From Polytrichum commune (lineage: Eukaryota > Streptophyta > Polytrichopsida > Polytrichales > Polytrichaceae): 64,000 bases of DNA. Below, one piece after another: positions 34,472 to 55,063 of this stretch. A program made the position numbers and the translations under genes. Position 1 is the first letter of the stretch; the number at the start of each line of letters is the position of its first letter. Below the pieces are notes generated by a model. That model was not told the DNA's origin. It made no database searches and saw only the letters and a program-made list of their open reading frames with translations. The stretch lies in contig OX485805.1 in NCBI GenBank assembly GCA_950295325.1, positions 10,354,501-10,418,500 on the forward strand, read 5' to 3'.

Positions 34472-34612
34472 CTGCAGCCCCTTTGACCCAAACAGCTAAC
34501 CACACTGCACAGGTGGACGACACACAGACTACTCAGCTGGACACTCAGATGGACGACACGCAGGTGAGCATCGGCGGCGGACCACACGCAGGCGAGTCTC
34601 GCGCCACCCTGG

Positions 34613-35110
34613 CCAAGTGACAGGCACTCTTGCCACTATGACCAAGTGACGGCACTCTTGTCACTCGTGGCCAAGCCAAGTGACGGCACTCTTGCCACTC
34701 TTGGCAAAGCCAAGTGACATGCACTCTTGCCACTCCTGGCCAAGCTAAGTGACATGCACTCTGGCCACTCCTGGCAAAGCCAAGTGACATGCACTCTTGC
34801 CACTCTTGGTCAAGCCAAGTGACAGACACTCTTGCCACTCCAGGCCAAGCTAAGTGACATGCACTCTTGCCGCTCTGGCCAAGTGACGGCCTTCTTGCCA
34901 CTCCTGGCCAAGCCAAGTGATAGACACTCTTGCCACTCTTGGCCAAACCAAATTACAAGCACTCTTGCCAATGTGACCAAGTGACGGCACCTGACCAAGC
35001 CAAGTGACATGCACTTTTGCCACGCTTGACCAAGCCAAGTGACATGTACTTTTGGCACTCTAGCCAAGCCTTGTGACAGGTACTCTTGCCACTCGGGCCA
35101 AGTGATTTAT
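34613..35110. repeat. 36-bp minisatellite
   Basis: About fourteen degenerate copies of GCCAAGTGACATGCACTCTT followed by GCCACTCCTGGCCAA. The many overlapping minus-strand frames rich in AWPGVARV-type words are produced by this repeat and are not genes. Confidence 0.85.
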
Positions 35111-35206: not shown

Positions 35207-36695
35207 GACAAATGAAGTCATATGAAGTTCTGAAGTCATCTTCGCAGCACAGGGTTTTTATAGGGGCGATACTGTCCGATCGGGTTTAGGGTCAGATTCT
35301 GACGCGAAGATCCCAACCGTCCATGATGACGGCTGAGATGCCCTGTGCCCGATTACGTGGGCCAAACCAAACATAAAGATGTCTGTGAATCACGAAATTG
35401 CCAGGGGCTGAGGATCTCCAAGATAGCCCTTCCAAAGATGCTCCTCTTTTGTGGGCAGAAAATGTGACCTCAATTTCAACGACCGTAGCTGAAGATCTCA
35501 AGTTTTTTTTGACAATTTCAACTATATAGATGTTTGCAGGTTAGAGGCGGCTATTGAAAATCCAAATTTTAAATGTTGAAGTTCTATTGTATGGGATATT
35601 ATAATTGGAATGTCGATAGTGGTCTCCCGGGGCAGTATTTTAAGAAACGAAATTGGGGTTGGTTTCTTGATCGAACCTCCACTCAAATCATCTCCAAATA
35701 ACAAAATGTTACTCTCGTCCAAAAGAGGGGCAATATACTTACTCAAATCGGCTCAAAAATCTTGAAGCCATTATTTTGGGGAAGCTTTGCAATTTGAGGC
35801 AGTGGTACCACAACTAGTATGCACCTTCCACATGGATTCACACCCACCAACACATGCCCAACTAAATATTCCAATGGATTTTGTTTAGGATATGATGTGT
35901 TTGAGTGTCATGCAAATTTTTAGGTCAAGTGGGAATCATTTGCACATAGGGATCAACCAAAAAACATCTTTAAGATATGCTACCTCTAAACCATAGAGGT
36001 GATAAATGTCAAGTAGGTGTTCGTGGACTAGTTCCACTGTAAACCAGTTGGGAACACAATCCCATATTTGGTTTGAATCAAAATTATCCACGTGGCAAGA
36101 TATAGAAAAAAAGAGAACATAACACTATATTCGTTAAATTGAGACTTTTTGGGCATTTTGAGACATTCACAAAAATAAGAACAAGGATAAATGGAACACA
36201 TATTGGAGAAAGTTGTAAGATGCGAACACTTTGAAGCGGGTGTTTAGAACAAGATCCCCATTAATAACTCATATTTGGGATTGTTTAGGGTGGGCAATCC
36301 AAACCTTAGGCCAAGTTGAAGGGGAAATCTTAAAACATTCATATTATCGCACAAAAACTTGTATGAATATGGTTTAGGTAGGGCAATCCAAACCATAGAT
36401 CATATTGAAGGGGAAATATGTGAACCAATATAATATAACATACAAAATATTCCAAACTCATATTTGTGATGGTTTAGGTAGGGCAATCCAAACCTTAGAC
36501 CATATGGAAGGGGAAATCATGTGACACTTATATTATTGCAAAAAAAACATACAAAGTGTGGCATGTAAAATGCATAGCATGCTAACACCACACATCCATT
36601 GGATAGTGCGACCCAAAATGTTCTTGCCTATGGCCCACAACCCTACGCCTACTATGGCCTATCTAGCCTCGGAGACTACCTCTTTTTCTTTTGCT
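35207..36695. other. AT-rich spacer without recognised gene
   Basis: No coding support on either strand. From 36126 it carries a dispersed repeat, listed separately. The right end holds the 3' side of the minus-strand cluster that begins at 36696. Confidence 0.45.
36126..36520. repeat. Dispersed repeat with ACTATATTCGTTAA end and ~110-bp tandem units
   Basis: The left end matches the element at 62216-62468 over about 200 bases. It then continues into about three tandem units containing GGTTTAGGTAGGGCAATCCA followed by AACCTTAG and GAAGGGGAAAT. No right terminal repeat was found, so the copy is incomplete or rearranged. Confidence 0.6.
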
Positions 36696-37482
36696 TCATT
36701 TTCTTTTGCTTTTTTTTTCTTTTGCCTCTTTTTCTTTTGCCTCTTTTTCTTTTGCTGCGGCTTCTTTTGCTCGCATTGCTTCAACATTCCTGAAAATCTC
36801 CGCCCCGCGACTATAGCCATTCTTGGGGTGACCGCCATCAAAAACACATTTTGGATTCCGTCGGCCGCCCGAATTATACGACGAAGAATTCGAATACGAT
36901 GAAGTGGACTGTCTTGCATTTCTGGTCATGGAGTAGAAACGCTCCAACTCGACGGACGCACTAGCCCGCATAGGTTTACGGGTGGGAGCAACCTGCAACG
37001 CGTGAATGCAAGAACACACGTGTTAGTTTAGGGAGGAAGACCCAAACGTGTCACACATTCATTTTTTAAGTGCCGGATGATTGTAATGCGCGGTTAACCA
37101 TGTTTGGGGGGGGGGGGGGGGGGTTCACCTTGTCACCGGGGGCGTTCCCGTCGGAGTCGGCGAGGAGGGGCAATGCGTCCCGCAAAGGAATAGGAAGGGT
37201 GCCACTCTTCGTAGGCCGAGCGTCCATCCGCAGCCGCCGTTGAGGTGTACTACTGCCGCCGGGCCGAGACGGGGACGTCCGGACGCATTTGCGATTTATG
37301 CCCTTGAGCGGCGACGGGGACGGAGATGGCCGGAAGATTTGCTTGGGTGGGGGGCTATCGACGACGCCGGCGTCGATAGGCTCCTTGGAGTAGTCGATGG
37401 TGGACGCGGCATCGTAGACGGTCTCGTAGAAGAAGCTCCCCAAGTTTGATTCGCTGACGATCTCAATCGAGGGCTCCAAACG
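36696..37482 (-). CDS. Two 3' exons: Ser/Pro-rich then Lys/Glu/Ala-rich tail
   Basis: Exon 37482-37129 follows TTGCGCCAG and ends before GTGAAC; exon 36992-36696 follows GTTGCAG. Both borders are phase 0. Together they give 118 plus 98 residues. The first part (LEPSIEIVSESNLGSFFYET and on) is Ser/Pro-rich; the second has a Ser/Asn/Tyr-rich patch and ends in repeated AKEKE units, probably a charged helix. No domain is recognised. The FCP1-like frame upstream ends in a stop at 37602. These exons are therefore alternative terminal exons of the same transcription unit or part of a neighbouring gene without a visible first exon. The intron between them contains a run of about 18 Cs (minus strand). 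Confidence 0.4.
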
Positions 37483-37601
37483 CTGGCGCAAAAAAGGAAA
37501 CAAAACAAAACCCAAGGGGAGGGGGGGAGGGGGGAGCATGTGAAAATCGATATACAATTGAGGCATAATATATCACACACAATGGCACACCATGTAGTAT
37601 C

Positions 37602-38414
37602 TCAAATGAGTTTATTATATTTCGCGTGAGCGTACAACTCTCTGTACATATAGTCCTTCGGATCCATGTATCTTTCGCCTATCGGATTACAACTAAGGAA
37701 CCGGGGCACGGGTAGTCCGCTCCCCACGAGCGTTTGAATGTACTTAAGTAGGTCTAACAAAAAACGGTCTCGGACTTTCTCGACCGTCCACGTGGGGCAA
37801 ACTATGAAGTTCGAGGTCGGGTTCAAAATGTTTTTGGAAGCGCTGTCGTCCACCATCAACGTGTTGTCACGGGTGGGGCGAACGTCGTAGGGACAGCCGA
37901 CCATGGTCGGATGCTGGTCCCATACGACTGGCTTCAAGACCTTAAGAAATTGGTTTACGGCGGGGTTGTTGGGCTTTTTCACAACCTTGCCCTCGGGGGT
38001 GTATAACGTTCTATAAGAGTCCTGTCCTAGGACCAAGCACGGGGGTTGGAGTCCCTTGAAGATGAACTCCACGACGGCCTGGGTGTTCTCGGACTTCATG
38101 GAGCTCCACACGATCACCCACCATTTGGATAGGGCGACCTGCAGGAAGCGCCGAAGCCACGGGCGGAGGTACACTAGCTTGCTTTTGATGTACGCGGGGG
38201 GACCATCGTAGTTGGCGTCCTCGGGCTTGCAGAAAGGCACCGTGGGGACCCTCGGACAATGCACGCACTGGACAAGGACCCCGTTGAGGTCTAGCACCAG
38301 GAACCGGGTCTTGGGAGGCGAAGGTGGCGAGGGCAAAATCGGGGGGACCACCGCGCTGTCCTCCACACTCCTCGGAGAGGATCGGTGGGGAGCTGCGACG
38401 CTATGCTCCGAACC
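37602..38414 (-). CDS. FCP1-like HAD-family domain protein or exon
   Basis: The frame is open from a good acceptor (CTCGTCGCCGCAG before 38414) to the stop at 37602, 270 residues. No ATG opens the domain, so it is an exon rather than a free-standing gene. After a Pro/Ser stretch the FCP1/NLI-interacting-factor fold is readable in order: FLVLDLNGVL (motif I, second Asp replaced by Asn as in several plant relatives), VIVWSSM (motif II), a conserved KPVVWDQHPT region, and NTLMVDDSASKN (motif III). Family members dephosphorylate phosphoserine proteins. The DxN form may lack that activity; I infer binding or reduced activity. The exon starts in phase 0, as does the donor at 38910, so it could continue the methyltransferase-like gene upstream. 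Confidence 0.65.
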   Translation of the reverse strand, partial: GSEHSVAAPHRSSPRSVEDSAVVPPILPSPPSPPKTRFLVLDLNGVLVQCVHCPRVPTVPFCKPEDANYDGPPAYIKSKLVYLRPWLRRFLQVALSKWWVIVWSSMKSENTQAVVEFIFKGLQPPCLVLGQDSYRTLYTPEGKVVKKPNNPAVNQFLKVLKPVVWDQHPTMVGCPYDVRPTRDNTLMVDDSASKNILNPTSNFIVCPTWTVEKVRDRFLLDLLKYIQTLVGSGLPVPRFLSCNPIGERYMDPKDYMYRELYAHAKYNKLI

Positions 38415-38865
38415 CTGCGGCGACGAGCGAGAGAAGGCGGACGAGGACTATGTTATGCTATGTCCATCTCAAGCAGAACGGAAATTTTGTGCAAACACAA
38501 GAAGAATTGGACCATTGGTGGCAACAAAAACATACAAGGGGAACAACATACATTGGGACACGGATGCAAACATATGGGCGCCAAAAATAATAATTTTATT
38601 TTTACAAATCTCTATGTACAATTTGATTGGGGGGGGGGGGGGACCGCGGTGAACGAGGGCATTCACACTATCCTAATTCTACATCTACAAAATTGGTTGC
38701 GCGCCGCCAAGGTCGAGCATAGTCGAGTGCAGGTGAGACGAAGGGGATCGCGGGGGGGGCACGTTGGGGGGAGGGGGAGCAAGTGTAGAGCATGGGGGGC
38801 AGGGGGTGTGCATTTCCTCCTAGCAAGGGGGACACGACCACGCCAACAAGACAATGACCCAGCAA

Positions 38866-38887
38866 GTTTGGGTCGGTCGACCCAAAC
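38866..38887. repeat. 22-bp palindrome copy in intron 3
   Basis: GTTTGGGTCGG plus TCGACCCAAAC. Two further copies (39189-39210 and 39258-39279) lie in the neighbouring exon. It belongs to the palindrome family described for the arrays at 40465, 42225, 43744 and 47984. Confidence 0.9.
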
Positions 38888-38909
38888 TGGGGAGGGCTCA
38901 GTGTATTAC

Positions 38910-40394
38910 CTCGCCCTGGTCATGTCTCGACGATGTGGAAGCCTCCACCGTCCCCGCTGCCCCGCCTCTCTCGCCACCGCCTTCTCCGACGACGTCAGGA
39001 ACCTTCTCCTGCAAACGATCGGCATCAGGCCCTTGTCCTAAACCAATCTCCGCATTTGCATCATGCATGGGTTCATCGATTTGGTTAGGAGTAGAGGTAT
39101 CACCAGGCCCTTGCAAGCCTTCAACATCTAGCATGGCCGTGTCTAGTTGACACCCATGTTGGTCAAGGGAGGACTGCGCTGCAACGGGGTTTGGGTCGGG
39201 CGACCCAAACTGTCCTGCATCTGGAGAGGGCCCTTCGGACACTCCAGTGGATGGTGGGTTTGGGTCGGTCGACCCAAACATCCTGGGGTCGTCCGATTGG
39301 TGAGGGGGCGCCATGACTATCGGGGGCCGAAGTGGTGGAGGGCCCAAAGGGGAGGAGGCTCCAGAGACGCGCCAGATGTTGGGGTCATCCACTTGCTGGA
39401 CCGGCGCGTACGGAACTTGGTGGGGCCGAATCAAGTGCTGGAAGCTGAAAGACGATTGCGGCACAGGCTGCTGAGGGATGCTCTGCGGAGGGAAGCCGGG
39501 GGGCAAGTGCAGGAAGGAGCTGGAGGGAGCCACCACCAAACCTTGCGCCCACATTCCTTGTATCACTTGTGATATCAATTCGGCGTGGGACGGAGGTTGG
39601 GCCATCGCCCTCTGTCGTTCCTGCTCCAACAGGAGAGCCCTTAGCTCTGCTACCTCGTTCCGCATTGAGGGTTCTTCCGCGGCAGCCTTCTGCAGGCGGA
39701 CTCGCTGCTCCTCGTCCCTCCTCATCTTCTCGTTCGCCTCCTCCACAGTCAGGACCTCGGGCTTCACCCTAACCATGCCAGCGAACGCTGTCGGGGACGG
39801 GGGATCTGATCTTAGCCGTTTGGCGAGCTCAATGTCATCGTCGTCCTCGCTGCTTATGGCAATGGTCTCCTCCACGGAGTAGTCGCCATACAGCTTCTTC
39901 CCCTTCATCTTCCTCCTCTCCCTGAACGTGGCGGTCGCGTCCCTGGAGTACATGTCCCGTGCATCGTCCACCGTCAGGACGGGCACGAGCTTACTCTGCG
40001 GGGTTGCCGCCCGCATCGCCTTCTTCCGTTGAGGGGCTTCGGATTCTTGCGTGAAGCCCGTTGCCCCTTCCTCCACGTCGCCTTCCTTCTCCGCCTCCTC
40101 GTGCTCCTCTTCTTCCTCCTCCTCCTCGACATCGCCACCTTTTGTGCGGGACGGATTGCCCGGATGCAACCCGACAAGAGGTTCGGGTTCTTGGGTTGTG
40201 GCCCTCATGGCCATTTCTTCCGGGTTGATCCGCCTCACCCTATCAAGAGGGTTTTCGCCCCCCTGAACAACCTCGTCGACGTAGCTACCCGGGATCCAAT
40301 CGAGGATGTCCATCTTCTTCGCCAACGATCTCTGCGTCCTGTAAAATGGCAGATCGCCATCCTCTATGTAGGAGTATATACTCAGCCCCGACAT
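38910..40394 (-). CDS. Long charged, Gln/Pro-rich exon of the ParB-like cluster
   Basis: Begins right after a GTGTAG acceptor with MSGLSIYSYIEDGDLPFYRT and stays open for 495 codons to a GTAATA donor at 38909. The first 40 residues complete the methyltransferase-like motif I region of the previous exon (pattern A..G...Y.Y..D....YR.QRSL, like the NAD/SAM-fold end of N4/N6 methylases). Then come acidic Glu runs, a basic coiled stretch rich in EEANEKMRRDEEQRVRLQKA, and a Gln/Pro-rich tail. Two copies of the 22-bp palindrome (39189-39210, 39258-39279) lie inside the frame and are read as FGSTDPN and FGSPDPN. The last 200 residues may therefore be repeat-derived or intronic. If the donor is skipped the frame stops at 38898. 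Confidence 0.55.
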
Positions 40395-40464
40395 CTACAC
40401 AATCCAAGTTATATAGACATTAGAATTAGGCGAGGGACATAAACAAGACCAAGTACAATGTGTA

Positions 40465-40774
40465 GTTTGGGTCGATCGACCCAAACCAACAAAGAGCCTA
40501 GTTTGGGTCGATCGACCCAAACCAACAAAGAGCCTAGTTTGGGTCGATCGACCCAAACCAACAAAGAGACTAGTTTGGGTCGATCGACCCAAACCAACAA
40601 AGAGCCTAGTTTGGGTCGATCGACCCAAACCAACACAGAGCCTAGTTTGGGTCGATCGACCCAAACCAACAAAGAGACTAGTTTGGGTCGATCGACCCAA
40701 ACCAACAAAGAGCCTAGTTTGGGTCGATCGACCCAAACCAACACAGAGCCTAGTTTGGGTCGATCGACCCAAAC
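40465..40774. repeat. Nine-copy palindrome array filling intron 2
   Basis: Nine copies of a perfect 22-bp palindrome (GTTTGGGTCGA followed by its complement) are spaced at exactly 36 bp by the linker CAACAAAGAGCCTA or close variants. They fill most of the 408-bp intron between the exons ending at 40803 and starting at 40394 (minus strand). Because 36 is a multiple of three, open frames run through it on both strands, but they are not genes. Confidence 0.95.
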
Positions 40775-40802
40775 TGCGCACGAGTTATAGAAAGTCGCTT
40801 AC

Positions 40803-42134
40803 CATGGCAGCATAGATAGGTTTAGAGCCTCCGAAGACGTTGAAGATGCAATCCCCTCTCCTCGTCAGCGTCCTCATCATTCTCACGTAAAATTCCATCC
40901 GCAGCTCATCTAAAGGATAGTTCGCGTATTTAGCCTCGTCGTAGAGGCACTTGTTGACACCCAACCCTTCTGGAACTTGGAAGAGTTTGTCCATCCGGGA
41001 TATAGGGTGGTTTGGCACCTTCAGCAACTCCGCTTTGTACACGAAGTACAAACACAAGACGTTGACGAACTTGGTCTTCTTGTCCCTCAACGTCGTGTAA
41101 GCTCCCTCCGCCGGTGCGGCGATGTAGTGAGACTTGGAGACTGCATACTCCGGCTGCAGTTTCCGGACAAGCTCGTACACCTGCTCCGCCCTCCTATCCT
41201 CGACTATCCAAAGCCAGATATCTACCTCCCTGAACTTAGGGCTTGCATAATCGACGAACTTAGATAGGAAGGGGTCATAGAAGAGGGTGCTCATCGTGCC
41301 CTCAAATGAGCTTCCAGGAATATTCCTGAAATCAATCATCCCAAAAGGAAAGCGGTCCCTTGCTTTCGTCCTTATCGCCATTCTGGCGTCTTGACCTGGC
41401 CAGCCCTGAATTTTCAACGGGTCGGCGGTGACAAGGTTGAAGTACGCTTCCCCTTCAAACTGGACAATCTTCTTCTCCTTGATGAAGTTCGAGAACGCAC
41501 GCGCTGTGTGATCCGGAAGCGCCCGGTTCTTCCCACCCTTCACCATCTTGGCCCGCAAGAAGTCGTCCCCCGCTTCCCTTATTAGAGCCGCCATGGAGGC
41601 ACTGGTGAACTTATATTCAGCTTTGAATGCTCTCCAGTTAGCCTCATGGACCTCGCCGTCCACGACAATATTCCTCTCTGGCACTAGTTTATGCAGCTCC
41701 TGCACGATAGTCGTCTTCTTTTTCCTGTTATCCGTCCATTCCTTCATGGTGTAGCATGAAGGAACGAAGGATTTGGGCTTTTGGAAGACAATCTTCGGGT
41801 GCACCCAACACCTCTTCGCCGTGGGTGCCACGTGCAGGATGTGAGATGCCGCCTTCTCCACCTCCGTCTCTGACAGCCCTTGAAGAGTTCTAAAGAACTC
41901 TCTCACGAGAGGCTTCATCTGCTTGAAGCGCGAGGTTTGGCTGAAGAAAATGCCAGTGTCGGGGTCGATCAAATCCCCCGTCTCGTGCTTTTCAAACACG
42001 GTTTTCCACTTCCTCCAAACTGAGTCAGATGCTGTAATCAAGTAAATCTCCCCCTTGAGGTCGTTGTATTTCTTCTGCTTGTGGCTCGAATTATCAATGG
42101 AGGAGAATTTGTTGATCATTTGGTATTTGAAATC
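40803..42134 (-). CDS. Methyltransferase-like exon of the ParB-like cluster
   Basis: Starts after GACGTGCAG at 42134 and ends before GTAAGCG at 40802; 444 codons, phase 0 at both ends. The C-terminal half has the order of a beta-class N4/N6 DNA methyltransferase. YFNLVTADPLKIQGW, near residue 238 of the exon, matches the motif IV region (usual DPPY, here DPL), and FNVFGGSKPIYAAM at the exon end matches motif I (usual FxGSGT). Spacing of about 195 residues fits. Both motifs lack key residues, so catalytic activity is doubtful. The N-terminal half has Lys-rich helices and no recognised domain. In phages and bacteria a ParB-like domain fused to such a methylase is a known arrangement, which supports reading exons 1-3 as one protein. 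The methylase call is moderate. Confidence 0.5.
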
Positions 42135-42224
42135 CTGCACGTCCACAAAACAGAACATTTGAATGCGTGTTAGATATGTACATGTGATTTCCAACCCATA
42201 TCATGACCAACATCTGCAACAACA

Positions 42225-42382
42225 GTTTGGGTCGATCGACCCAAACTAAATAAACTAGCTGCATCAGGAGTTTGGGTCGGTCGACCCAAACTAAATAAAC
42301 TAGCTGCATCAGGAGTTTGGGTCGGTCGACCCAAACTAAATAAACAAGGCTGCATCAGGAGTTTGGGTCGGTCGACCTAAAC
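42225..42382. repeat. Four-copy palindrome array in intron 1
   Basis: Four copies of the 22-bp palindrome at 42225, 42270, 42315 and 42361, spaced 45-46 bp with the linker TAAATAAACTAGCTGCATCA. They lie inside the 257-bp intron between the exons ending at 42392 and starting at 42134 (minus strand). The rightmost copy has one mismatch. Confidence 0.95.
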
Positions 42383-42391
42383 AATACTCAC

Positions 42392-43717
42392 CTCCCATTT
42401 GGGATTCTTGTCCTTCGCATTCTCCCTCTCCTTGGGAGGCCTACCATAGAACTCCCACACCTCCCGCGAGGCCATGATATTCCTTATCCAGGAAGCTTGG
42501 TAGGCCCTCTTCTTATTTCCCATATTGAAGTACCGGGAGATGTCGCTGAGCTTGGTCTCGTCGTCAGACCACACCACTAGTGCCTTCCAAACCTTCAGCT
42601 TTTCCTTCTGATTGTTCGGATCATCCCACTCATTCATGAGTTGGATTTTCTTGGATGCCTCCACGCTGTGCTGGCCGTCTATGAGCCAAAAATCGCCCTT
42701 CTGAATTGTGGGCCACATTTCAGGTGTAGGCATTTTCTTGAGACCCTGTGGCATCACTACTATCGTTTGCCTGTCGTCTTTAAACTGCTCGCAAACGATC
42801 TGCGCGATTATCCAGTCAACGTAGGCGTCCTCCTTTGCCCGGACACACTTCTCCGGTGGCGCTAGATGGCACTGGCTGATGTTCACGTCGAACTTAAAAT
42901 CCCTGCCCATGAAAAAACAGTGGGAGCATTTCGTCGTGAAATTGTTCACGATTTTCTGCAGCTCCCCTGCATCCACCTCTTCGCCGGGCTTCGGCATGCG
43001 CAACTCCGGTGAGACTGGCTCGTCAGTCATCACAGATGACTCTCTCCCCCTCTTGGATGGAGTTGTTTGACGGCTCCCAGAAGGTGTAGGCGTCTCGCTA
43101 TCCGCAGGTGTTTGGGAGGGAGTGGTCCTCCGCGAGTCAGCCGGTACTGGTCGCGGCTTCCTCACCGATTGAGGTCTTGACGACCCTGCTCCTTCCTCTG
43201 TGGTTGCTTTCCGCCTCACGGGTTGCTGAGACTTGGTTTTGCTCTGCAGGGCTTTGTTGAGCACGCTGATTGCATGCTTTAGTTTCGTGAATCTGCTCGA
43301 CACCTTTGTGTTCGATGTACTGTTATCGATGAATATGGACTCCGGTTTGATGACGTCTGGTTCTACACATGTTTCTTTTGCATAGATAGCGTCAAAGGGT
43401 TCGGAGAACTGGTGCATAAACATATGCGCGTTCTGGACAGCGTTGTTCTCGAGGATGACATCCACGTAGTCTCCAAGAGACTGAACCGATGCCACCTCCC
43501 ACCCCGTAAGAGTAGCCCATGTGTGCTTCTCCACGGTCCCAACCTTCACAACAAAAATCATTTTGTATTGCGAACCCTTAACCACTTGTATAGACCACGC
43601 GAGGACAAGCCCGTCCTTAGGGGAATAGGAGTCATCCTGCGGGGTTTCGTGCTCCTGCCACAACATGTCCGGCGCAGGCATGAACCACCTTTCGCCGGGT
43701 CTTTTCTTTGGAGCCAT
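42392..43717 (-). CDS. ParB/DGQHR-like first coding exon
   Basis: The ATG at 43717 directly follows a TTTTCTTACAG acceptor, so a non-coding first exon probably lies upstream. The exon is open for 442 codons to a GTGAGT donor (42391), phase 0. Residues 1-130 have no recognised domain. Residues 155-240 are a Ser/Thr/Pro/Arg-rich linker, probably disordered and nuclear. Residues 250-440 look ParB/DGQHR-like: a helix-strand start, VVMPQGLKKMPTP, then the hallmark FWLIDGQHSVEASKKI (D347-G-Q-H350), where bacterial relatives read DGQHR or GERR. ParB-fold domains bind DNA or nucleotides, and DndB-type ones act with DNA modification. The eukaryotic role is unknown. The exon joins the methyltransferase-like exon after an intron full of palindromes. 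Confidence 0.6.
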
Positions 43718-43743
43718 CTGTAAGAAAATAATGTGCAATGTTA

Positions 43744-44200
43744 GTTTCGGTCGTTCGACCCAAACATCTACGACATGAATAGGTTTAGGTGGATTGTATA
43801 TTTATATATTTTAGCATCATTTGTATTGATAATAAGAATGTTTTGATTATTGGGTGGATTTGCATTTTATATTGTTGGTGACATGCAGGATTACTTGATA
43901 CTTTTCCTTGATACATTCCTTGATTATTATTTTTTAGTGGATGTGAATTTTATATTGATGCAAAAATCATGGATTTCTTTATGAGTTTATAATTAGAAGA
44001 CGTTGTTTGGGTCGTTCGGCCCAAACATGATGCTTTGTTTTGTGTTTGGGTCGGTCGACCCAAACAAGAGGCTGTGTTTGGGTCGTTCGGCCCAAACATG
44101 ATGCTTTGTTTTGTGTTTGGGTCGGTCGACCCAAACAAGAGGCTGTGTTTGGGTCGACCGACCCAAACCTGTGGCCGTGTTTGGGTCGTCTCCCCAAACT
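43744..44200. repeat. Palindrome cluster upstream of the ParB-like exon
   Basis: Seven copies or near copies at about 43744, 44005, 44044, 44076, 44115, 44147 and 44179. Some have TCGTTCGG or TCGTCTCC centres. They lie in what should be the leader intron of the minus-strand cluster. A 71-bp unit containing two copies is duplicated in tandem. Confidence 0.9.
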
Positions 44201-44452
44201 TTCCTATTTTAATGTAATTTTTAAAAGTTGGCACGTAGCATATACAATGCTTATGCGTTGTGTATGCTACAATACCTTCAATTGACAAACACTTATTGCA
44301 TATAATAAAAGAAAATACCTTTGTTGTATGTAGCAGTTGTTGTAAACAGTTGCTTTAAAACAGGTGTTCTTCTTCCAATAACACAGAAACAGTTGAATGT
44401 AACCTCTCACACAAATCCACAATCTCTCATACAACTCCTAGATCTCTTTTGA

Positions 44453-44760
44453 ATCTCTCAAACAACAATTCAATACTTCAAACAACCTCTGAATCTCTAA
44501 GAACAAGTGAATCTCTCAAAACAATAACTGACTCTCTCAAATGACTTAGATATCTCTCAAACAACAATTGAGTGTTTCAAACAACCTCTGAATCCCTAAG
44601 AACAAGTGAATCTCTCAAAACAATGACTGACTCTCTCAAATGACTTTTGTATCTCTCAAACAACAATTGAGTGTTTCAAACAACCTCTGAATCCCTAAGA
44701 ACAAGTGAATCTCTCAAAACAATGACTGACTCTCTCAAATGACTTTTGTATCTCTCAAAC
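44453..44760. repeat. 99-bp tandem repeat
   Basis: About three copies with a 99-bp period, each containing ATCTCTCAAACAACAATTGA and ACAACCTCTGAATCCCTAAG. The sequence is purine-rich on the minus strand. It lies between the palindrome cluster and the presumed promoter of the minus-strand gene. Confidence 0.9.
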
Positions 44761-44959
44761 ACCTCTTGATTATCTTATAGAACTCCTAAATCTCACAAAC
44801 TCTCCAACTACAATACAGCCTCCAAAACCCGCAAGCTTAGAATGTTGGAAAACCCTTCAACAATCTTCTACTTACTTCACTCTACAACAATCACTCTACT
44901 AACTCTCACGCACTCTAAAACTCTCTCCTTAGGTTTCTGTTCTATTGCAAACACTTCCT

Positions 44960-45190
44960 AACTTCTACAGCAAGAGAAGGGAGGGAAGGAGAAGAATCAG
45001 TAGGCGCCAAAGCAACAAGAAGGGAGGGAAGAGAAGAAAATCGCCACCCTGAATCGCCACGGCGCTTCGCGAAAGCGGCGCTTCCACAAGAGGCGCGGAG
45101 CGAATGCTTGGCGCGGAGAGAGAGAGAAAGAGCGAAAAGTTGTGACGGCTGGGGTTTTGTATGCCTCGGGAATTGGCCCCCAACCGCACG
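44960..45190 (-). promoter_or_regulatory. Presumed CT-rich 5' leader of the ParB-like cluster
   Basis: On the minus strand this stretch reads CTCTTTCTCTCTCTCTCCGC, then GC-rich sequence, then further CTTCCCTCCCTTC tracts, which is typical of a plant transcription start and leader. It is the only such region upstream of the acceptor at 43718. I infer a first exon here and a leader intron of more than 1 kb; the donor was not pinned down. Short minus-strand frames here (to 45260) lack domains. Confidence 0.35.
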
Positions 45191-45314
45191 AATAGGGTGC
45201 CAACGGGATTAGGGCACCAACGGAATTAGGATTACGGGGAACCCTAAATCCTAAAGCCAAACTGTAAACCCTTAGCGGGCATTAGTATTTTCAAGACACT
45301 TTGGAGTACCCTAA

Positions 45315-45845
45315 TGGGGCATTCCCACTTGACTTTAGTTAAGACCCTCACTATTTTATAAAGACCGGGTAAAGCTCCCTCGGTTATAGCGGAGGCATCC
45401 AACTATCCCAATGCACCTACAAGAACTTGCTCCGGAGATTTTCAAGTAGGTTTTAGTTAAGTAGCTTTCACACATGTTCATGGTTTTATCTACCAAGCAA
45501 TGAATGTTGGGTAGTTTTTGTCCCATCCCCAAATGCCTTACTACTCACCTATCTTACCATCGGTTTTTGTTAATGAAGCTCCTCGTGCCCTCATAGCTAA
45601 GACTAAAAAGCAACCAATCACAAGGGTGGGAGGCGACACTTTTAAAATTCCTATATTCTTGCCTAATGTTTAGGTACCGATGGGAGCGTCGGTGGTTGAG
45701 GCTTAAAACCTCCACTTTTAAGCCATGCCACATCATTTGCCACCTAGGCTCGGCACTAAAAAGAGCCATATGTGTGAAACCTAGATAACTAAAACCGCAT
45801 TTAGACTAATACTACTTCTAACTAATGTCAAGTGGGAATGCCCCA
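45315..45845. mobile_element. PIF/Harbinger-type MITE, 531 bp, TAA duplication
   Basis: The left end TGGGGCATTCCCACTTGACT and the inverted right end AGTGGGAATGCCCCA match over about 25-30 bases. Both flanks are TAA (45312-45314 and 45846-45848), the 3-bp duplication of the Harbinger group. The interior is non-coding. Confidence 0.75.
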
Positions 45846-46274
45846 TAAGGTGCACATCAAATGCGGTATTCTACAAAATGAAACCATTTATACAACTAAT
45901 GCATTTTTACAACGCAACGTTATGCTAAAACTAAGACTTAACCCCTACTCACATGACACCATAACCTAAATTTCCCAAACAAGTTGAAATCATTGGTTTC
46001 TCTTTTGTTTGAGCAAGTTAGAAAAATAATACAATTGCGTGACATTTAACGATGTAATCGTTGACATTTAGACTTTACCAATGATGCCAAGAACTCACAC
46101 AATATGCAATGAATAAAAAATATAACCCCCGTCCCCCAACATGAAATTCGGAAATTTAGGATATTTGAATGTGTTTGCTAAATGTATACCTTCCCCAAGA
46201 GCATTTTCTCAGGGTTTGGAATTGCATGATCCTTATGTCGAAATGCTAACATGCTCAAGTTTTTAGTAAATCCC

Positions 46275-47125
46275 TTACATACTCACTTGAATGAATCACA
46301 TAGTCGCCAATAAACCATGGATCGTGATATATGTACTTCGAATGTGATATAAAAGTAAATCGGAGAACCACAACATCAAATGAAGCCCTTTGACGCAATC
46401 ATGTTGTTATTGAATGTTCCCTCCACGTATATTACATAATGGCGCAAGATAAAGTTCATGTTGTTTGTATGTGGAGGTAGCAGTGAACAACTACGAATTT
46501 TTGTATTTAGGGTTTAGGGTTTAGGGTTTAGGAGTTAGGTTTATAACATATTAATCTATCCAATATTAACATATAACATTGACTTACTGGTGAGAATAGG
46601 TTTTTACTGGAAGGTAATAGAAAAGACGATCTTGATTATGTTTATTTGTTATTACGGACGTTTAAACGTGATATAGTGAATGGTCTTGTGTTTATTCAAA
46701 TAACATGAAATGTTGTGGATGTTATTAGGGGTAAGGGGTTCAACTTTGGATGTTTTGCTCACTTTAGGGAATCACATAGTCGCCAATAAACCATGGTTCA
46801 TGATGTATTTAATATATGGAATGTGATGCAAAAGTAAATAAGAGAAGCACAACATCAAATGAAGCCATTCACGCAATCATGTTCTTATTCATTGTTCCCT
46901 CCACATGTATTGGATAATGGAGAAAGATATAACAGATATTGTTTGCATAATATGAAGAAGAGTCTAATAGGAAGGTTATAGTAAATACAATCTTGATCAT
47001 GTTAATATGTTATTTGGGACGTTTAAACATGATATACTAATTGGTTTTGTATTTTGTCAATACGTATTTCATGTTGTGGATGTTATAAGGGTTTAGGGTC
47101 CAACTTTGGATGTTTTGGTCACACA
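46275..47125. repeat. Diverged tandem duplication of about 400-490 bp
   Basis: CACATAGTCGCCAATAAACC occurs at about 46287 and again near 46774. The following sequence (CAACATCAAATGAAGCC, CAATCATGTT, GTTCCCTCCAC, GGACGTTTAAAC, CAACTTTGGATGTTTTG) is repeated in the same order. The left unit is longer and holds a TTTAGGG tract (46506-46532, three and a half units). Confidence 0.75.
46506..46532. repeat. Interstitial telomere-type motif
   Basis: TTTAGGG is repeated about three and a half times. TTTAGGG is the usual plant telomere unit. It lies inside one unit of the tandem duplication; a second short run is at 47281-47298. Confidence 0.7.
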
Positions 47126-47708
47126 CATTAGTAAACTTGAAGTGAACTTGAGGATGGATTGAAATAACATTAAAAGATTGAACCAAAAAGCGACATTGCT
47201 AGTTAGTATCCCCTTAACAACGTCCACATACGTTTATCATTGCCACACTTCCATGCGAGATAACAGAGCCGCAATGTTCTAGGGTTTAGGGTTTAGGGGA
47301 GACAAATAAATAATTTTATTCATCATGACAATGGCCTCAAGCCTTGGAAACTCTCTCATAATTGCAACCTCCAAATGGCCCCAACCCCACCTAAATAGGT
47401 TTGCACTTGAAAGCATTGAATGGAGTTGTGGTTGGGTATACATATTGGTTAAAATATACCGTTGTGACACTTGAAAAAATTAATGTGGCCGCCACCCTTC
47501 CTCCCAATGTCGTATGTCATATACACACAAAACCAAAAAAAGATTAAATATCATAGACTAAGACATATGACGGCTGGGGTATGAGAGGGGCATTGAAAGA
47601 TGCGCATTTTCTACAATAAACAGAAAACGGGGAATTCTGTCAGGAGGTTTGAAATAAGAAGGCGGGAAAGGCATCCAATGAGGAAGTCGGGCAAGTGGAG
47701 GTGGATAG

Positions 47709-47714
47709 TATAAA
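47709..47714 (+). promoter_or_regulatory. TATA box, possible promoter of the DUF7869-like gene
   Basis: TATAAA followed by a C-rich patch and a CT-rich stretch (TTCTTTTTTGCTCTTCTCCC) near 47740. A start near 47740 would place the whole palindrome array and the solo LTR in a leader intron of about 4 kb, ending at the TTTGTGTAG acceptor before the ATG at 51994. Inference from position only. Confidence 0.35.
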
Positions 47715-47983
47715 GGGGCGCACCCCCCAAAAGTTGGTTCTTTTTTGCTCTTCTCCCACTCCTGAATTCGTAGAGAGAACTCTTAGTCGGAGCTGTACTT
47801 CGAGGTTCGTTCACGCTGTTGTTCATGAGGACCTATTCACAGCATGCAAGTCCGCAGTGAACTTTGCAATGAGATGAAATTCCACACACCTCTCAATATC
47901 CGCTGCATTATACGCCGCATTATACGCTGTATTATACGTCGGTCGACACTAGTGTTGGCGGGTTTCAGTCTGACCCTTGTGAG

Positions 47984-48732
47984 GTTTGGGTCGGTCGACC
48001 CAAACCCCTCCACTAGTGTGGGCGGGTTCTAGTCTGACCATTCTGAGGTTTGGGTCGATCGACCCAAACCCCTCCACTAGTGTGGGCGGGTTCTAGTCTC
48101 ACCCTTGTGAGGTTTGGGTCGGTCGACCCAAACCCCTTCACTAGTGTTGGGGGGGGGGGGGGTCTAGTCTGACCCTTGTGAGGTTTGGGTCGGTCGACCC
48201 AAACCCCTTCACTAGTGTTGGGGGGGGGGTCTAGTCTGACCCTTCTGAGATTTGGGTCGGTCGACCCAAACCCCTACCCCACTATGGGCGTTTATCGTAA
48301 AACCTTTCAGAAGGTTTGGGTCGGTCGACCCAAACTTTTTCGCACATCGTGAACGAATTGTTAATGGCCCTTACCCAAGGTACTCAGAAGGTTTGGACGG
48401 ACAGAGTAGGAACCTTATCCCATCATATGTAATGTTTGGGTCGAGCGACCCAAACCTCATCCCAGTGTGGGTGGATTTACACTGTGAAAGTTTGGGTCGA
48501 CCGACCCAAACCCTTTCCCAGTGTGGGTGGACTTACCCTGTGAAAGTTTGGGTCGACCGACCCAAACCCCTTCCGAGTGTGGTGGATTTACCCTGTAAAA
48601 GTTTGGGTCGGTCGACCCAAACCCCTTCCCAGTGTGGATGGATTTAGCCTGTGAAAGTTTGGGTCGACCGACCCAAACCCCTATCCAGTGTAGGTGGATT
48701 AACCCCGTCAAAGATTGGGTCGGTCGACCCAA
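47984..48732. repeat. Twelve-copy palindrome array upstream of the DUF7869-like gene
   Basis: Copies at 47984, 48048, 48112, 48183, 48250, 48314, 48434, 48490, 48546, 48601, 48657 and 48713. Spacing is 64 bp at first and 55-56 bp later. Linkers contain CCCCTCCACTAGTGTGGGCG, or CCCAGTGTGGGTGGATTTAC in the second half. Central bases alternate between GGTC and GACC, so the copies point both ways. Open frames on both strands here are artefacts. Confidence 0.95.
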
Positions 48733-48767
48733 CCCCTTCCCCAGTTTCGGAGGTTGTAGTTGACCAT

Positions 48768-51606
48768 TGTGAACCCTTTGAGTGGTCCACCACTCTGCGG
48801 GATCACTTTTAGTTAGAATGTTAGCATTAAAAGTTAGAATTGATAGGGAATTTAGGGAAAATTAGTTCATTTAGCATTTAGCCTAGAAGAAGGAAGGTCA
48901 AAATGAAACTAAGTAGTGCTAGAAGATAGCAAAGTAGAAAAAATGTGCTAGCTAGTAAAAACAACTAGCTAAGCAAATATTAGTAGATGCTAGCTATTAA
49001 GCAAATGTTAGTAAATGCTAGCTAAGCAAGTGTTAGTTTATTAGTTAGTGTGAGGCACACAAGACTATTAGAGGTGGTTTAGGTAAGAAGATAAAATCGG
49101 CGTGAAGAATTTTGAAGACAAAAAAGAAAGAGAGCAAGGGGGATACTTGCCCACTTGCCCCCTTGCCAACTCGATGGCGGAAAAATTAGAAAGATTTCTA
49201 AAGGTTTTTTGTCGGAGCCACCTCGGCGAGAGGGTGGCAACCTCAACCGGGAAAACCCCCGAGCCAAAATTTCGGGAAAGGGTTTGAAAAATGGATCCGG
49301 TGGAGGAGGGGTCCAACCCTTTTGTGAGAGGGTTTAAAAACCCCTCCTTCCACCTTGTAGCTCTCTCTCTTTCTCTAGTTTTTGGGCGAAGCCCTGCTTC
49401 AATGTAGTTAGGAAAAAATCCTTTAGCATGTATTCTCAATGGTCTAAAAGAAAGGCTTGAGAACCTCCTCTACTCTCTCTCTCCTAGTTAGGTTGTGTGT
49501 TTATTAACACACCAACAAAATTATTCCTTCTTTTGTAGAGGTAGGTTGGATGGTAGAGTTTTGAGTAGAGGCATTATAGACCTCATCTGCCAATGCCCTG
49601 AAGGCTTAGTTCAAAAGCTAGAACAAGATACTTATCATTTTTCTCTTAGAGAGATTTCATATAGCTATCCATAGCCGTTTCCCATTTGTGATTTGGTTGA
49701 GATGACAATTAGTTATGGATTTTCAAAGATGGAGTAGAAAAACTGGGTGGTCTTGTGGGTAGCGGCTGCTGGATCAGACCTGCGAGCCCAATAGGAATTT
49801 TAATTCCAAGAAATTATATTTTTCCCAAGTAGAACTTTTGTGTAGCTTTCCAAAATGGCTTAGAACATTTGATTTGAGCATGATTTGAATTAGATATGAA
49901 TTGTGCAAGATGGGACACATAGTTTGAGAACTTTTGGTTGACTGCTGCATTACAGAGGACCTGCTGGGTTCACTTCGGCTTACCTTTCTAATCACATATT
50001 TTTATCAAATACATATTTTTAATATCTCTCCAGGGTCATATAGAACGTTTGATTTGACTAAGATTTGAATTAGATATGAATTGTTGAAGGCGAGATACAT
50101 AGTTTAAGCCTTCTTGATTGACTGCTGTGTTACAAGGAGTCCGCTGAATTTCTATTAGCTTAACCTGCTGATGTCATAATTTTTCTAGTTAGAGCTTGTT
50201 CATAGCTTTCCAATGGTATAAGGAAAGCCTAGATCCAAGTAGTAAGGAATGTGCTATGAATTTTTGAAGTTAGAAGGTAGATAGGTGGGTTGGAAGGGTC
50301 GGTTGAATCGACCTCACACTTCCAACCCTCATAACTTTTGCATTTCTTATCCGATTAGAGTGATTTTTAGATCATTGGAAAGATAATTTGGTGCACTAAG
50401 TATAAATATTATGCTTAGGATTAAATTACAGGGCAGAATAACACTTTATATTTTAATTGTTAACTAAGGTACGCTTACTACCAAACTAGTTACAAAGAAG
50501 GAGGCAAGGTCGACGCTCGGAAAGTGGAGCAAGGAAGGAGGTAGCGGCTCGGCCTACATCAAGCCCAAATCAACCGAGGAAAATTGAGGTAAATTAACTA
50601 ACCTTAAGCCTTCCATTTAGGATTGGAGGGAGCACGGCTAAGGTACGCATCTCTAAACCTACTCACCTATCTCGTAAGGTCAAGTGGCTTGACCACTTGA
50701 CCGCCAAGGGAGTACCCAATTCCATTGTTTTCGGGGCCCTTGGTATGTTTTGTGGTAGTAGCTTCATTTATTAGCAAGTTTCGTGTGTGGTAAGTCGGAT
50801 TAATCACCGACACGACCACTCTGAATGTTGTTGGTGGAAAGGTGGGGTTAATGACCCGCGAATCCACTATTATGTTGTTGGCCCCATAGATTGGGAGTAA
50901 TGGCCCCAATTTATGAAGATTGCGCAACAGGTTGAACCTACAGGTCGCCCGTCACCCTGGTCCCATTGAGTTGCATTTCGTGGTCTATCCAGTGTAAACA
51001 CATTTAACAATCAAAACATATAAAATAAATCGTAAACCCTTGTTGGCAAGAGACCCGAGGTAAGGGGTGATGCCTAATATGTTAATGTAGTAAGTTAGGA
51101 CGTGCAAACAAAAGTAAGTAATTAAGAAGGAATTTGTGTGAAGGGTGGGACTTAGGCCAAGTTCCCCCGCTTAGAAAACTAAATAGAACTAAATAAAGAA
51201 ATAGGAAGAATTGAATGGTCCATCAAATTGTCGTTATTCCGTTCGTTGAGTTAGGGTGGTATGAGTCACACCCGGTTGGGTGTATCAGAACCATCCCAAT
51301 TCACAAATTAGGATTGCCTTGGTTTCAAGGCTGGTGCGTCTGCGCGTAGAATAGGTTGTAGGTTAAGGTTAGAACTAGATATGAAATTGGTTAGTGGAGT
51401 TTAAAGCCACACTAGTAAAAAACTAAGGCCTAACCTCCGGAGGTACTACGACGCATATTTAATCTCCCTTAAAAATCTAACTACTCACGTTATACACCTA
51501 TCATCCGGGTTCGGCTTGGGCGCCTGCAAATGCAGGCCACCTTTACCGAAGGGCTTGTGTAATACTTTTAGGCTCCCTCGAAAGGGGGTGGCCCAAAAGT
51601 ACCACA
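48768..51606 (+). mobile_element. Long solo LTR-like element, 2.84 kb, 5-bp target duplication
   Basis: Starts TGTGAACCCTTTGAG and ends AAAAGTACCACA, flanked by ACCAT at 48763-48767 and 51607-51611. The interior has a TTTAAAA promoter-like box and CT-rich leader near 49320-49380. It also has degenerate repeats of about 200 bp containing GAATTAGATATGAATTGT and TAGCTTTCCAA (about 49830-50230). There is no gag or pol, so it is read as a solo LTR of a family unlike the two at the left end. It is inserted in the palindrome array. Moderately old. Confidence 0.75.
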
Positions 51607-51617
51607 ACCATGACAAG

Positions 51618-51796
51618 GATTGGGTCGGTCGACCCAAAATCTTCCCCACAGCGTGATGGAATTCTAAATGGCCCTCAACCCATCATTGTACAAGGTTTGA
51701 GTCGGTCGACCGGAACCCGACCCTATCCCACGGGCAAGGTGTGGATTGCCCTCAATCCCTGGTGCCACAGGGTTTAGGTCGGCCGACCCAAACTCC
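51618..51796. repeat. Right-hand remainder of the palindrome array
   Basis: Three decayed copies near 51619, 51701 and 51774. Removing the solo LTR at 48768-51606 joins GTAGTTGACCAT to GACAAGGATTGGGTC in the same spacing as the array to the left, so this is the continuation of that array. Confidence 0.8.
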
Positions 51797-51993
51797 CACC
51801 CAAAATATTTTGTGGAACATTTTGTGGACTGGCGCATAGTATTGGGAGCTCACATTGCATTTGTGTTGCAAATGTCTTGATCCTCAGTGTCCCCATTTAT
51901 CGTGATGTTTTGCATTTTCCAATATTTGATTTTTTTGGACCCTTACGTTGTGTCCATGTTTGTTGAGGTTTCATGTGCATTTGTGTAGGCGCA

Positions 51994-54900
51994 ATGGAGG
52001 GAGTTGGTGGAAGAGGGGATTCCTTCTCTGAAGACATGGGCAGCACCCAATCTCTGTCTGGGGATGAGCTAGACATTGTCGGGGAGGATAGTTTTGATGA
52101 CAGTGCAGATGAAGGTCATTTGGGGAGTCCTTCGCCATCTGACCCTTTTTGCCCCATTGTGGAATGTGCGGGGCTTTCACGAGCTTCATGGGTGAATTTG
52201 GATGTGGTACTTGTTAATGACAGTGGAGTTGCTGTGGCGGAGGGTATTTGTCGTAACACACATCCACAAGATTGCATTGATGAACACTCCCTTGGCACCG
52301 AGGACGTTGGAGTTGTTATATTAGAATCACTTGTACATTCGGAAGTCAATCCAACTCATAGGTTCTCGTTGCGAAGGTGGCCGTTGAGGAATGTGACAAT
52401 TGAGGGGGTTAGTTTGCGCGACCATGAGCGACGACACGTCCAAATCCAACAGGAGCTCCAAGCAAACATTCGGCCACGCAAAGGCCTTCGGAAGTACGAA
52501 ACATTGACACGTCCTACTCCGTCTGCAAATAAGTGTAAACGTCAAAGGTTGCTCTGTGAGGAGTCTATTAGAGAAGTTGCTACGAAGGATTGTTGTGTAC
52601 ATCGTTGTTGCCAATTGTTCCCAAGAGATAAATTGAAGGCCATCCGTGAAGAAATGTGGCTTGGAGATTTCCGTCTAAGATCCACCAAAAAACTTGATGT
52701 CCATAGGGCGATACATGTGAACGGAGCGGGTCGCAAGGTCATCACCCTTGAGAGCATAGACGTGTGTTGTACGGCATGGTACACCATTCACGGTGTGTCG
52801 AAAGCGGAATTTTATAGACAAGCCGCGTATGCCAATGAAGGCCGCCGTGCCCGTCACCATGGGAACACGGGCTTAAAGAAACCAAGAGAAGCAACGAGAC
52901 AAGCAACAGCCACTCTGGCAACCATCATTGTCCCCCTTGCCGATGCAATGCCGCACAAAACACGGACATTCGCAACCGGTGAAAAGGTTGTGGAGAAGGT
53001 TCTTCCTACAGGCACGAAATGGAAAGACATATTGTTGGACGTAAACGCAGTTGGCGAGAAGGCCGGGTTGGACCCTATTTCGTTGTCGAAACTGAGTGCT
53101 ATCAAAAAATCTCACTTTAGCGAATACATCACAAAAAGACGAGGCGACAAATTTGCCCGTTGTTCCAAATGCGAGAAGTTGAAACGCCTTCGAGATGCAC
53201 ACACGATGGGGACAGAGTCCTATGCCGCACATCAAATGAACTATTTCAAGCATGTGAACATGCAAGAGGCACACCGTAATGATTACTACACAAATAGAGC
53301 TTTGTCCATCTCCAGGCCTTTGGAAGTCCTTACAATCATCCATGACAAGATGGACCATGCCAAAACAGCCTCACCATGTTTTGCAAATCGAATAAAAGCC
53401 ACGGACGGCCTTTTTAAGCTTCCTGTTTCGGTTACAGGTGATTTTGATAACAATTGCATTGCATTACCTAAACACAAATTTGTGCGTTTAGGTTTGTACT
53501 TGGGGCCATACATGTACACCATGTGAATTTTTTGGTGTTATAGTTGAATATTAAACCATTGGGTTGCCTTTGCAGGAATGATTGCACATGGGCATGGAGA
53601 TGTCAAGTATGCTCATTATGCTCTTGATTTGTATCCGGGGGATTCAAACCACACGATAGGGTCATTTGCAAAGCTTTTACGTGATTTGGAGAAACCGCTG
53701 TCCTATTCATCAAGATTGCTATTTGAAAACTCGGGATCAACACCTCTATATGAAGCGGTCTTGGATGGAAGAGATGTATGCGTGCACTCATTGCCGGAGC
53801 CACCAAGTGAAGATGTGATTGCCAAGAATTTGCCCCCAACTCTGCGTGTCCAATTGGACAATTGTGCGAAGGACAATAAAAGTAGATATGTTTTTGCATA
53901 TTGGTCGTTGTTGGTTGCGAAAGGCATTTTCAAGGAGGTTTTTGTGTCCTTTCTATTGGTAGGCCACACGCACGATGATATTGATGCGTCCTTTGGGCGG
54001 TGGAGCATGAAGTTGCGCGAGGAGGATTTTCCAACAATCCCATTGTTGATGAAGTCGTACATGAATTTGGAGAACATTCCTGTCATCCCCCCATATGATC
54101 GAGGAGGTTCCAGACTTCAAGGCATTTATAGAACCGTATATTCGAAGCGGAGCTCACCGATTGATCGGGCATACGAAGGCACAACAATTTCGGTTCTATG
54201 TGCGTGACGATGGTGTCCCCGCCATGCAATACAAGTTGTTGTGCACATCACAAGACTGGAGCCCGCCGGAGGGTCTCCTTGTATGGCGTGTTGATGGGGA
54301 AGGAAGGACGATGTTGCCTGACGGAGAGCCTAAGCCTTGCAAACCAATACCCATGAAGAATTTGGAGGACATTTGTAAAGGCATATCAGGCTTCATACAA
54401 TATTGGGAGAGTTTGAGGGTAGCGGATGTTGGTGGATCGTGTTGGCTTCGTTACGGAAGTTGGATACAATATTGGACACGTGTTCGTGGCGCTTTGGCAA
54501 ACCTTCATCAAGATACACCCCTTACTTTAAGGCATGGGTTTTGGCCACAAACACGTGTCAATGTACAAGCTTCGGAGGCTAGTCTTTTGGGAAATGGAGA
54601 GGTTCGAGAGGAGTTTGATGTGGACGACCATTACGTGGGGCCTGCTAGTAGTCGTCCGCCACCATCTTTCCGCATTGCAGTGGATTGTCATGAAGGTTAT
54701 ATGCTCATTTTGCGTCCTGGAGATGAGACATATGCAAAGCCAGTGTGGGTGGCAAGAGCTTTGTCCAAACCAAATTTTGTAACTTCCAGCCCTCATTTTC
54801 GACAAATACAAGTAGAGTACTACCGACCGACATCACGGAATGAAGATGTTGTTCGGCATTATACAGGCTGGGATACAAATCCTAACTTTCGGTGGAAGGT

Positions 54901-55063
54901 GGATTCTGAGCATGGTCCATCTTGGATAGATACAGATTCCATATTCATAGCATGGAAACCACGGAAAAATCATAGTGGATCGGTGTCCATCCCTCAAAAG
55001 TACATAACTTTTGCAAAAGACAACCTTGCTCGGATCGCAGAAGAAGCAACCCACGTTAAATGA
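51994..55063 (+). CDS. DUF7869-like transposase-like protein, two exons, one frame change
   Basis: Exon 1 is 51994-53437 and exon 2 starts at 53576 (ACAG before GTGATT, TTTGCAG before GAATG). Together they give about 975 codons. Residues 190-330 hold a Cys-rich module (CCVHRCCQLF, later VCCTAWYTIHGVS) and 430-490 a second Cys/His-containing region (CSKCEKL, near 53165). Exon 2 has the RNase-H-like core words RVQLDNCAKDNKSRYVFAYW and VGHTHDDIDASFGRW typical of DUF7869 proteins, followed by a C-terminal region ending near a VEYYRP motif. DUF7869 proteins are widespread in mosses, algae and animals and look like DNA-transposon enzymes. The frame changes at a six-C run (54087-54092); the downstream frame continues to 55063. 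ATG 51994 follows a TTTGTGTAG acceptor. I saw no terminal inverted repeats. Confidence 0.7.

Follow-up and report, generated by a model that had tools for sequence, protein, structure and literature searches.

What is a gene that appears to join ParB-like, DNA methyltransferase-like and FCP1-like modules doing in the nuclear genome of a moss? The question is raised by a 64,000-nucleotide stretch of Polytrichum commune DNA (contig OX485805.1 of assembly GCA_950295325.1, positions 10,354,501 to 10,418,500), here called the window. A reading of its letters alone, referred to below as the original prediction, placed four long and two shorter minus-strand exons between 36696 and 43717 and suggested a captured prokaryotic or viral module turned into a mobile or domesticated gene. 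The locus is a high-copy, recently active terminal inverted repeat (TIR) DNA transposon, and the gene is its accessory gene, divergent to a likely transposase gene. Arrays of a 22-base-pair (bp) palindrome, to which the accessory protein may bind, lie in and upstream of the accessory gene.

The transposon

The transposon extends from 36121 to 55594, which is 19,474 bp here and about 16.6 kb without a nested long terminal repeat (LTR). Alignments of other copies stop within a few bases of these two positions. The TIRs are 28 bp long, inverted, and start AACACTATATTC; one lies on the plus strand at the 3' end, on the accessory-gene side (36121-36148), and the other on the minus strand on the transposase side (55567-55594). 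They are flanked by a 4-bp target site duplication (TSD), ACAT on the plus strand, at 36117-36120 and 55595-55598. Eleven copies were surveyed, with both ends read in nine and one end in two. Exact 4-bp duplications were found in eight of the nine (ATGT, AACC, TGAT, TTTT, ATTG, ATGT, CCAT and TTTG); the ninth lacks a duplication and adjoins another element. Sola1 transposons have 4-bp TSDs, and the duplications found here fit that rule in their length. A 601-base probe identified at least 40 copies in the genome, with identities of 97-100% over at least 559 of the 601 bases (40 places scored among 596 first-look candidates).

The nested insertion, a solo LTR of 2.84 kb at 48766-51606, is outside the transposon proper. 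Nine other copies that cover its site are without it, which rules out the 19.5-kb unit as the true element. In a neighbouring copy on C3, which is in inverted orientation, the site is occupied by two LTRs that flank about 4.6 kb; this copy is 99.8-99.9% identical to the window copy over long aligned pieces. Since the two copies have the nested insertion in common and their target duplications differ, the transposon has moved after the insertion. Both a host gene and a single captured module were ruled out as descriptions of the locus, as the entire element repeats with sharp borders. The gene lies inside a TIR transposon of which many copies are nearly identical, and the suggestion that it is mobile is borne out.

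Two copies are found nearly end to end at L018:4980-4990, the 3' TIR of one facing the 5' TIR of the other, as if by insertion at the tip. The end of another element, with the related terminal repeat ATCACTATATTCGTTAATTTAAGAC, lies at 62217-62470 of the window, and a similar end is present at L032:861.

The accessory gene

The accessory gene is encoded on the minus strand by exon 1 (42392-43717, 442 codons), exon 2 (40803-42134, 444 codons), exon 3 (38910-40394, 495 codons) and exon 4 (37602-38414, 270 codons and a TGA). When joined, these four exons form a single open reading frame (ORF) of 1651 amino acids in which all borders are GT-AG and in phase 0; the positions, lengths and phase are those read from the letters at the outset. 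The exon borders and the stop are retained at another genomic site, in one diverged copy (L036/L037), which serves for all comparisons of diverged sequence below and shares 85-87% amino acid identity with the window copy in exons 1-2. Nonsynonymous (dN) and synonymous (dS) divergences between the two are 0.082 and saturated for exon 1, 0.082 and 1.6 for exon 2, 0.135 and 1.17 for the first 345 codons of exon 3, and 0.139 and 0.80 for exon 4. By these values, the 1651-residue protein is under purifying selection. Exon 3 of L037 contains a frame change between 1285 and 1344, close to a run of C, and was compared piecewise with the frame left unmended. With a query that extends past both exon ends, exon 1 recurs in all 90 places scored among 1149 candidates, at 91-100% identity, and by a count from the listing 58 of the 90 matches have no stop. 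This recurrence, together with the dN and dS of exon 2, excludes a chance origin of the exons.

Domains of the accessory protein

The best-defined part of the protein is exon 4, which is solidly predicted to be an FCP1/NIF-type HAD domain. It matches PF03031 with an E-value of 2.3e-13 and 50.6 bits (gathering cut-off 21.8), in agreement with the original assignment; dullard-like and HAD-IIID models match below their cut-offs, and a sequence search of the PDB gave no match for this exon at E 0.001. The catalytic consensus of FCP1/NIF HAD domains is D-x-D-x-T/V. The VDDS motif is present in exon 4, and the nucleophile motif reads DLNGVL in the window and in L037. Phosphatase activity is doubtful because DLNGVL is without the second aspartate of D-x-D, and catalysis is probably impaired.

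Exon 1 carries a ParB-like DGQHS motif, exon 2 is methyltransferase-like with FGGSKPIYAAM at its C-terminus, and exon 3 is charged and proline-rich. DGQHS and FGGSK, like DLNGVL, are present in the window copy and the diverged copy alike. Exons 1 and 2 have no significant match in Pfam, PHROGs, NCBIfam or PADLOC (best E 0.14), and exon 3 has none in Pfam or NCBIfam. In the PDB sequence search, exon 1 (E 1.4) and exon 2 (E 0.24 and weaker) gave chance matches. Structure prediction had been proposed as a check of the two folds; AlphaFold, run on exons 1 and 2 with two-row alignments, returned unusable models with mean predicted local distance difference test scores of 32.0 and 29.8. Capture from a prokaryote or virus found no backing: scans of viral contigs with patterns from exons 1 and 2 gave 15 and 96 pattern matches and no relatives, the patterns being poorly chosen, from weakly informative N-termini, and the result poor evidence of absence. 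The ParB-like and methyltransferase-like identities of exons 1-2 are plausible but unproven.

Could the protein be an active enzyme that methylates adenine or N4-cytosine and so marks the transposon encoding it? The beta-class N6/N4 DNA methyltransferases have motif IV, D/N/S-P-P-Y/F, and motif I, FxGxG. FGGSK stands at the place of motif I, and the sequence across the exon 2/3 junction continues as a motif I region does. Such a function is proposed in print for similar proteins, among them one from Ectocarpus, in the available part of PMC12477816. The spliced stretch of 924 residues, however, matches no methyltransferase profile at E up to 10, in a search whose HMMER filters drop most weak matches. 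Moreover, ADPL, originally taken for motif IV, is replaced by VEPL in L036, and no conserved motif IV is seen in the two copies compared. FGGSK is conserved in both copies, and an active enzyme is improbable.

The 22-bp palindrome

The palindrome has the sequence GTTTGGGTCG-NN-CGACCCAAAC. The window contains 34 matches, 28 exact and 6 with one mismatch, and none are expected from shuffles. All 34 are inside the transposon; neither the LTR insert nor the window flanks contain any. Thirteen of the exact palindromes lie upstream of exon 1. Ten of them, together with one match with a single mismatch, form an array between the divergent genes (47984-48678), and the other three are found with three singly mismatched ones at 43744-44168. 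Intron 1 contains three exact and one singly mismatched (42225-42382), intron 2 nine exact with a 36-bp period (40465-40774), and intron 3 a single exact one (38866-38887) that has the same place in the diverged copy. The remaining two exact palindromes are within the coding sequence of exon 3 (39189-39279).

The genome contains 9231 exact palindromes and 0 copies of the reversed control; the places of 100 of the 9231 were listed, and confinement to the element refers to this window. The 2-bp spacer is nearly absolute, since allowing spacers of 0-8 bp raises the count to just 9235. All 48 palindromes of the window, L036 and L037 have a spacer of 2, with varied central bases. The palindrome has the look of a bound, dimer-type DNA site.

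In the diverged copy, palindromes precede exon 1 and occur in each of introns 1-3, and exon 3 has its pair at matching positions. A one-to-one alignment can be made for three window palindromes, the pair in exon 3 and the single one in intron 3, and all three are exact in the diverged copy. The DNA within 60 nucleotides of the exon 3 pair is identical at 86 of 146 positions and intron 3 at 308 of 450. Outside the palindromes, introns 1 and 2 are identical at 72 of 127 and 60 of 104 positions, and the arrays are kept in both copies. These figures bear on an alternative in which the palindromes have no relation to the accessory protein and are the site of a host factor or a self-spreading minisatellite of the family. 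Several arrays do repeat in tandem, at periods that include 36, 45, 57 and 64 bp, as that alternative would have it. In both copies, however, the same palindrome recurs where spacers and periods are unrelated, and it stands alone in intron 3 and as a pair within the coding sequence of exon 3. Plain spread of a repeat is insufficient to account for this, and the alternative is unlikely.

Outside the scored exon 1 lists, palindrome clusters with a spacing of often 32 or 64 bp are found at G000:C1:475338-478028 and C1:2154319-2159887. These are perhaps more diverged or non-autonomous elements.

Proposed function of the accessory protein

The accessory protein may bind the 22-bp palindrome for self-recognition and shield the transposon from silencing. 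This is put forward as a tentative proposal, favoured because the anatomy of the arrays matches that of the transposon VANDAL21 and because VirB provides a possible precedent, both of which are compared below. The protein would bind GTTTGGGTCG-NN-CGACCCAAAC as a dimer, load at the arrayed palindromes and spread from them along the transposon, and protect it against host silencing in the manner of the VANDAL/VANC system. The methyltransferase-like and HAD parts would then be mainly recognition or recruiting modules without catalysis. A more detailed version is doubtful: a ParB-like factor for sequence-specific self-recognition and anti-silencing would load at a parS-like palindrome, of which there are about 28 in this copy, and a dead methyltransferase and an FCP1-like pseudophosphatase would tether it either to chromatin or to RNA polymerase II, the whole being a second, independently evolved VANC-like system.

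Several observations weigh against this proposal. The accessory protein has no significant match to ParB_N or a related profile, and its likeness to ParB is at the level of motifs. A profile comparison with ParB and methylases, which the original prediction had recommended, was made by hhalign against seven phage ParB-methylases, three of them Pfam-checked (methylase above cut-off in all three, ParB_N in two) and four picked by likeness to the first. The best alignments fell on the motifs that had been named, with DGQHSVEASKKIQL aligned to GHxRL of ParB and CIFNVFGGSKPIYAAM to motif I of the methylases, which is suggestive. The hhalign probabilities were 1.5, 3.2 and 1.8%. Shuffles attained the real score in 7 of 300, 3 of 300 and 4 of 150 cases, the last with the full stretch, and a reversed methyltransferase control scored 24.9 against 24.1 for the real one. 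Co-evolution of protein and site would be the strongest test, and the palindrome is unchanged between the two protein families compared. Finally, the protein that binds the palindrome could be one of the host.

The DUF7869 gene

The second gene of the transposon lies on the plus strand at 51967-55063 and consists of the ORFs 51967-53526, 53548-54207 and 54065-55063. The middle ORF matches PF25273 (DUF7869) with an E-value of 1.7e-36, and the product is likely a DDE transposase. No mention of DUF7869 was found in the literature searched. The family is abundant in the genome, all 150 matches scored among 1491 first-look candidates being above the cut-off. When these 150 were set against the best 150 of 802 candidates from a scan with the core motif of the accessory gene, 15 pairs no more than 20 kb apart were found. 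Thirteen of them are divergent, and 11 of the 13 are spaced 8.0-10.4 kb. Random placement, with the sizes of C2 and C4 approximated, gave a mean of 2.4 pairs and a maximum of 9 in 1000 trials. Both lists stop at the best-scoring matches, the DUF7869 match of the window lies outside its list, and most of the pairs belong to the L036-like family.

This linkage of the accessory gene, divergent to the DUF7869 gene, is what would be expected if the accessory protein were a transposition factor whose binding to the palindrome helps assemble the transposase complex and has no part in anti-silencing. Accessory proteins on arrayed motifs are known in plant DNA transposons; TNPA of En/Spm binds arrayed motifs and helps the transposase complex to assemble. 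Subterminal sites would be expected of such a factor, whereas the palindromes here are internal. The first exact palindrome lies 2.7 kb in from the 36121 border (38866), and on the transposase side the first match, exact or not, lies 3.8 kb in and has a mismatch (51772). A transposition factor is the main rival to self-recognition and anti-silencing, and a rather unlikely one.

The 3' end of the transposon

The two shorter predicted exons, here called 5 (37129-37482) and 6 (36696-36992, with a lysine-rich C-terminus), lie on the minus strand beyond exon 4. Because the HAD exon reads through to a TGA that is shared with L037, they are no plain continuation of it, and the original prediction is not confirmed on this point. 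Exon 5 is a probable coding exon. It matches in all 150 places scored among 914 candidates, at 94-100% identity, and is identical between the two families at 332 of 354 positions. This conservation was dropped as a simple proof of coding, since the adjoining intron is even more alike (126 of 130). The contrast between a synonymous difference (pS) of 0.153 and a nonsynonymous difference (pN) of 0.030 favours a coding exon.

How exon 5 would be reached can be outlined as follows. Past residue 220 of the HAD exon, four GTs are common to both copies, three in phase 2 and one in phase 0. The latter, at residue 235, reads GTGCCC in the window and GTAAAC in L037. A splice from residue 235 to exon 5 is possible and would retain the HAD domain, because the PF03031 match ends near residue 230; exon 5 could also be reached by skipping of the HAD exon. 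Exon 5 may belong to an alternative transcript that branches off at exon 3 or 4, or to a second ORF.

Likeness between the two families is much higher in the segment 37482-36696 than in exons 1-4 and introns 1-3, and this end of the transposon appears to be a recent mosaic or a gene-conversion junction. Outside the transposon, the repetitive open frames on the minus strand at 34545-35106 (LAWPGVARVHVTWL and similar) are a minisatellite.

Comparison with known systems

Giant algal transposons with ParB-methylase accessory proteins have already been described, green and red algal relatives included, and the proteins are suggested to bind their own element; that of Sola1-1_Ec32 from Ectocarpus has 1104 amino acids with ParB and N4C/N6A methyltransferase parts (PMC12477816, in the part available). 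The element described here is likewise a giant DNA transposon. Its accessory gene and its likely transposase gene occupy opposite strands, the accessory protein has ParB-like and methyltransferase-like parts (weakly supported here), and nested insertions are common to copies. The 4-bp TSD is a further likeness. The present protein differs in its length of 1651 amino acids, its added FCP1/NIF HAD domain and its degenerate methyltransferase-like part, and the element in its plant host, its DUF7869 gene and its arrays of the 22-bp palindrome; the available part of PMC12477816 mentions no arrays and names no binding site. That the host is very likely a land plant agrees with a scan for ARF_AD, a domain of the ARFs that mark plants, which gave 10 matches in this genome and matches in 0 of 14 control genomes. 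The combination of modules, at first thought unfamiliar, is therefore unfamiliar at most in its HAD fusion. Among the matches listed from the open-licence PMC literature, no paper reports such a protein from a land plant, or one with a HAD fusion or a palindrome. A ParB-methylase accessory protein in a giant transposon was known already; what is new is its occurrence in a plant, together with a HAD fusion and a palindrome.

The order of a ParB-like part followed by a beta-class methylase is also that of phage fusions such as the one of Streptococcus phage Javan108. The best hhalign alignments fall on their GHxRL and FGGSG motifs, at a probability of only 1.5-3.2%. Unlike the accessory protein, the seven phage ParB-methylases have 384-422 amino acids, and the three that were scanned match the methylase profile well. 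The HAD domain resembles the FCP1/SCP/NIF phosphatases (PF03031) in its profile match and VDDS motif and differs from them in having DLNGVL in place of D-x-D.

VirB is a relative of ParB. It counters H-NS silencing, according to the part of PMC10653881 available. The closest parallel in the anatomy of the sites is VANDAL21 of Arabidopsis, in which VANC21 lowers methylation and binds motifs that form arrays in introns and in the DNA upstream (PMC5735166, available part). Both elements have short arrayed motifs in introns and upstream DNA, adjoining an accessory gene. The VANC motif described in that part of PMC5735166 is, in contrast, 9 bp long, non-palindromic and variable between families, and binding has been shown there and is proposed here; no likeness of the proteins is claimed. 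The palindrome is a concrete candidate site, which makes the binding of ParB-methylase accessory proteins to their own element testable. If the proposal is true, plants own a second system that guards transposons against silencing, one made from a DNA-clamp protein of prokaryotic type.

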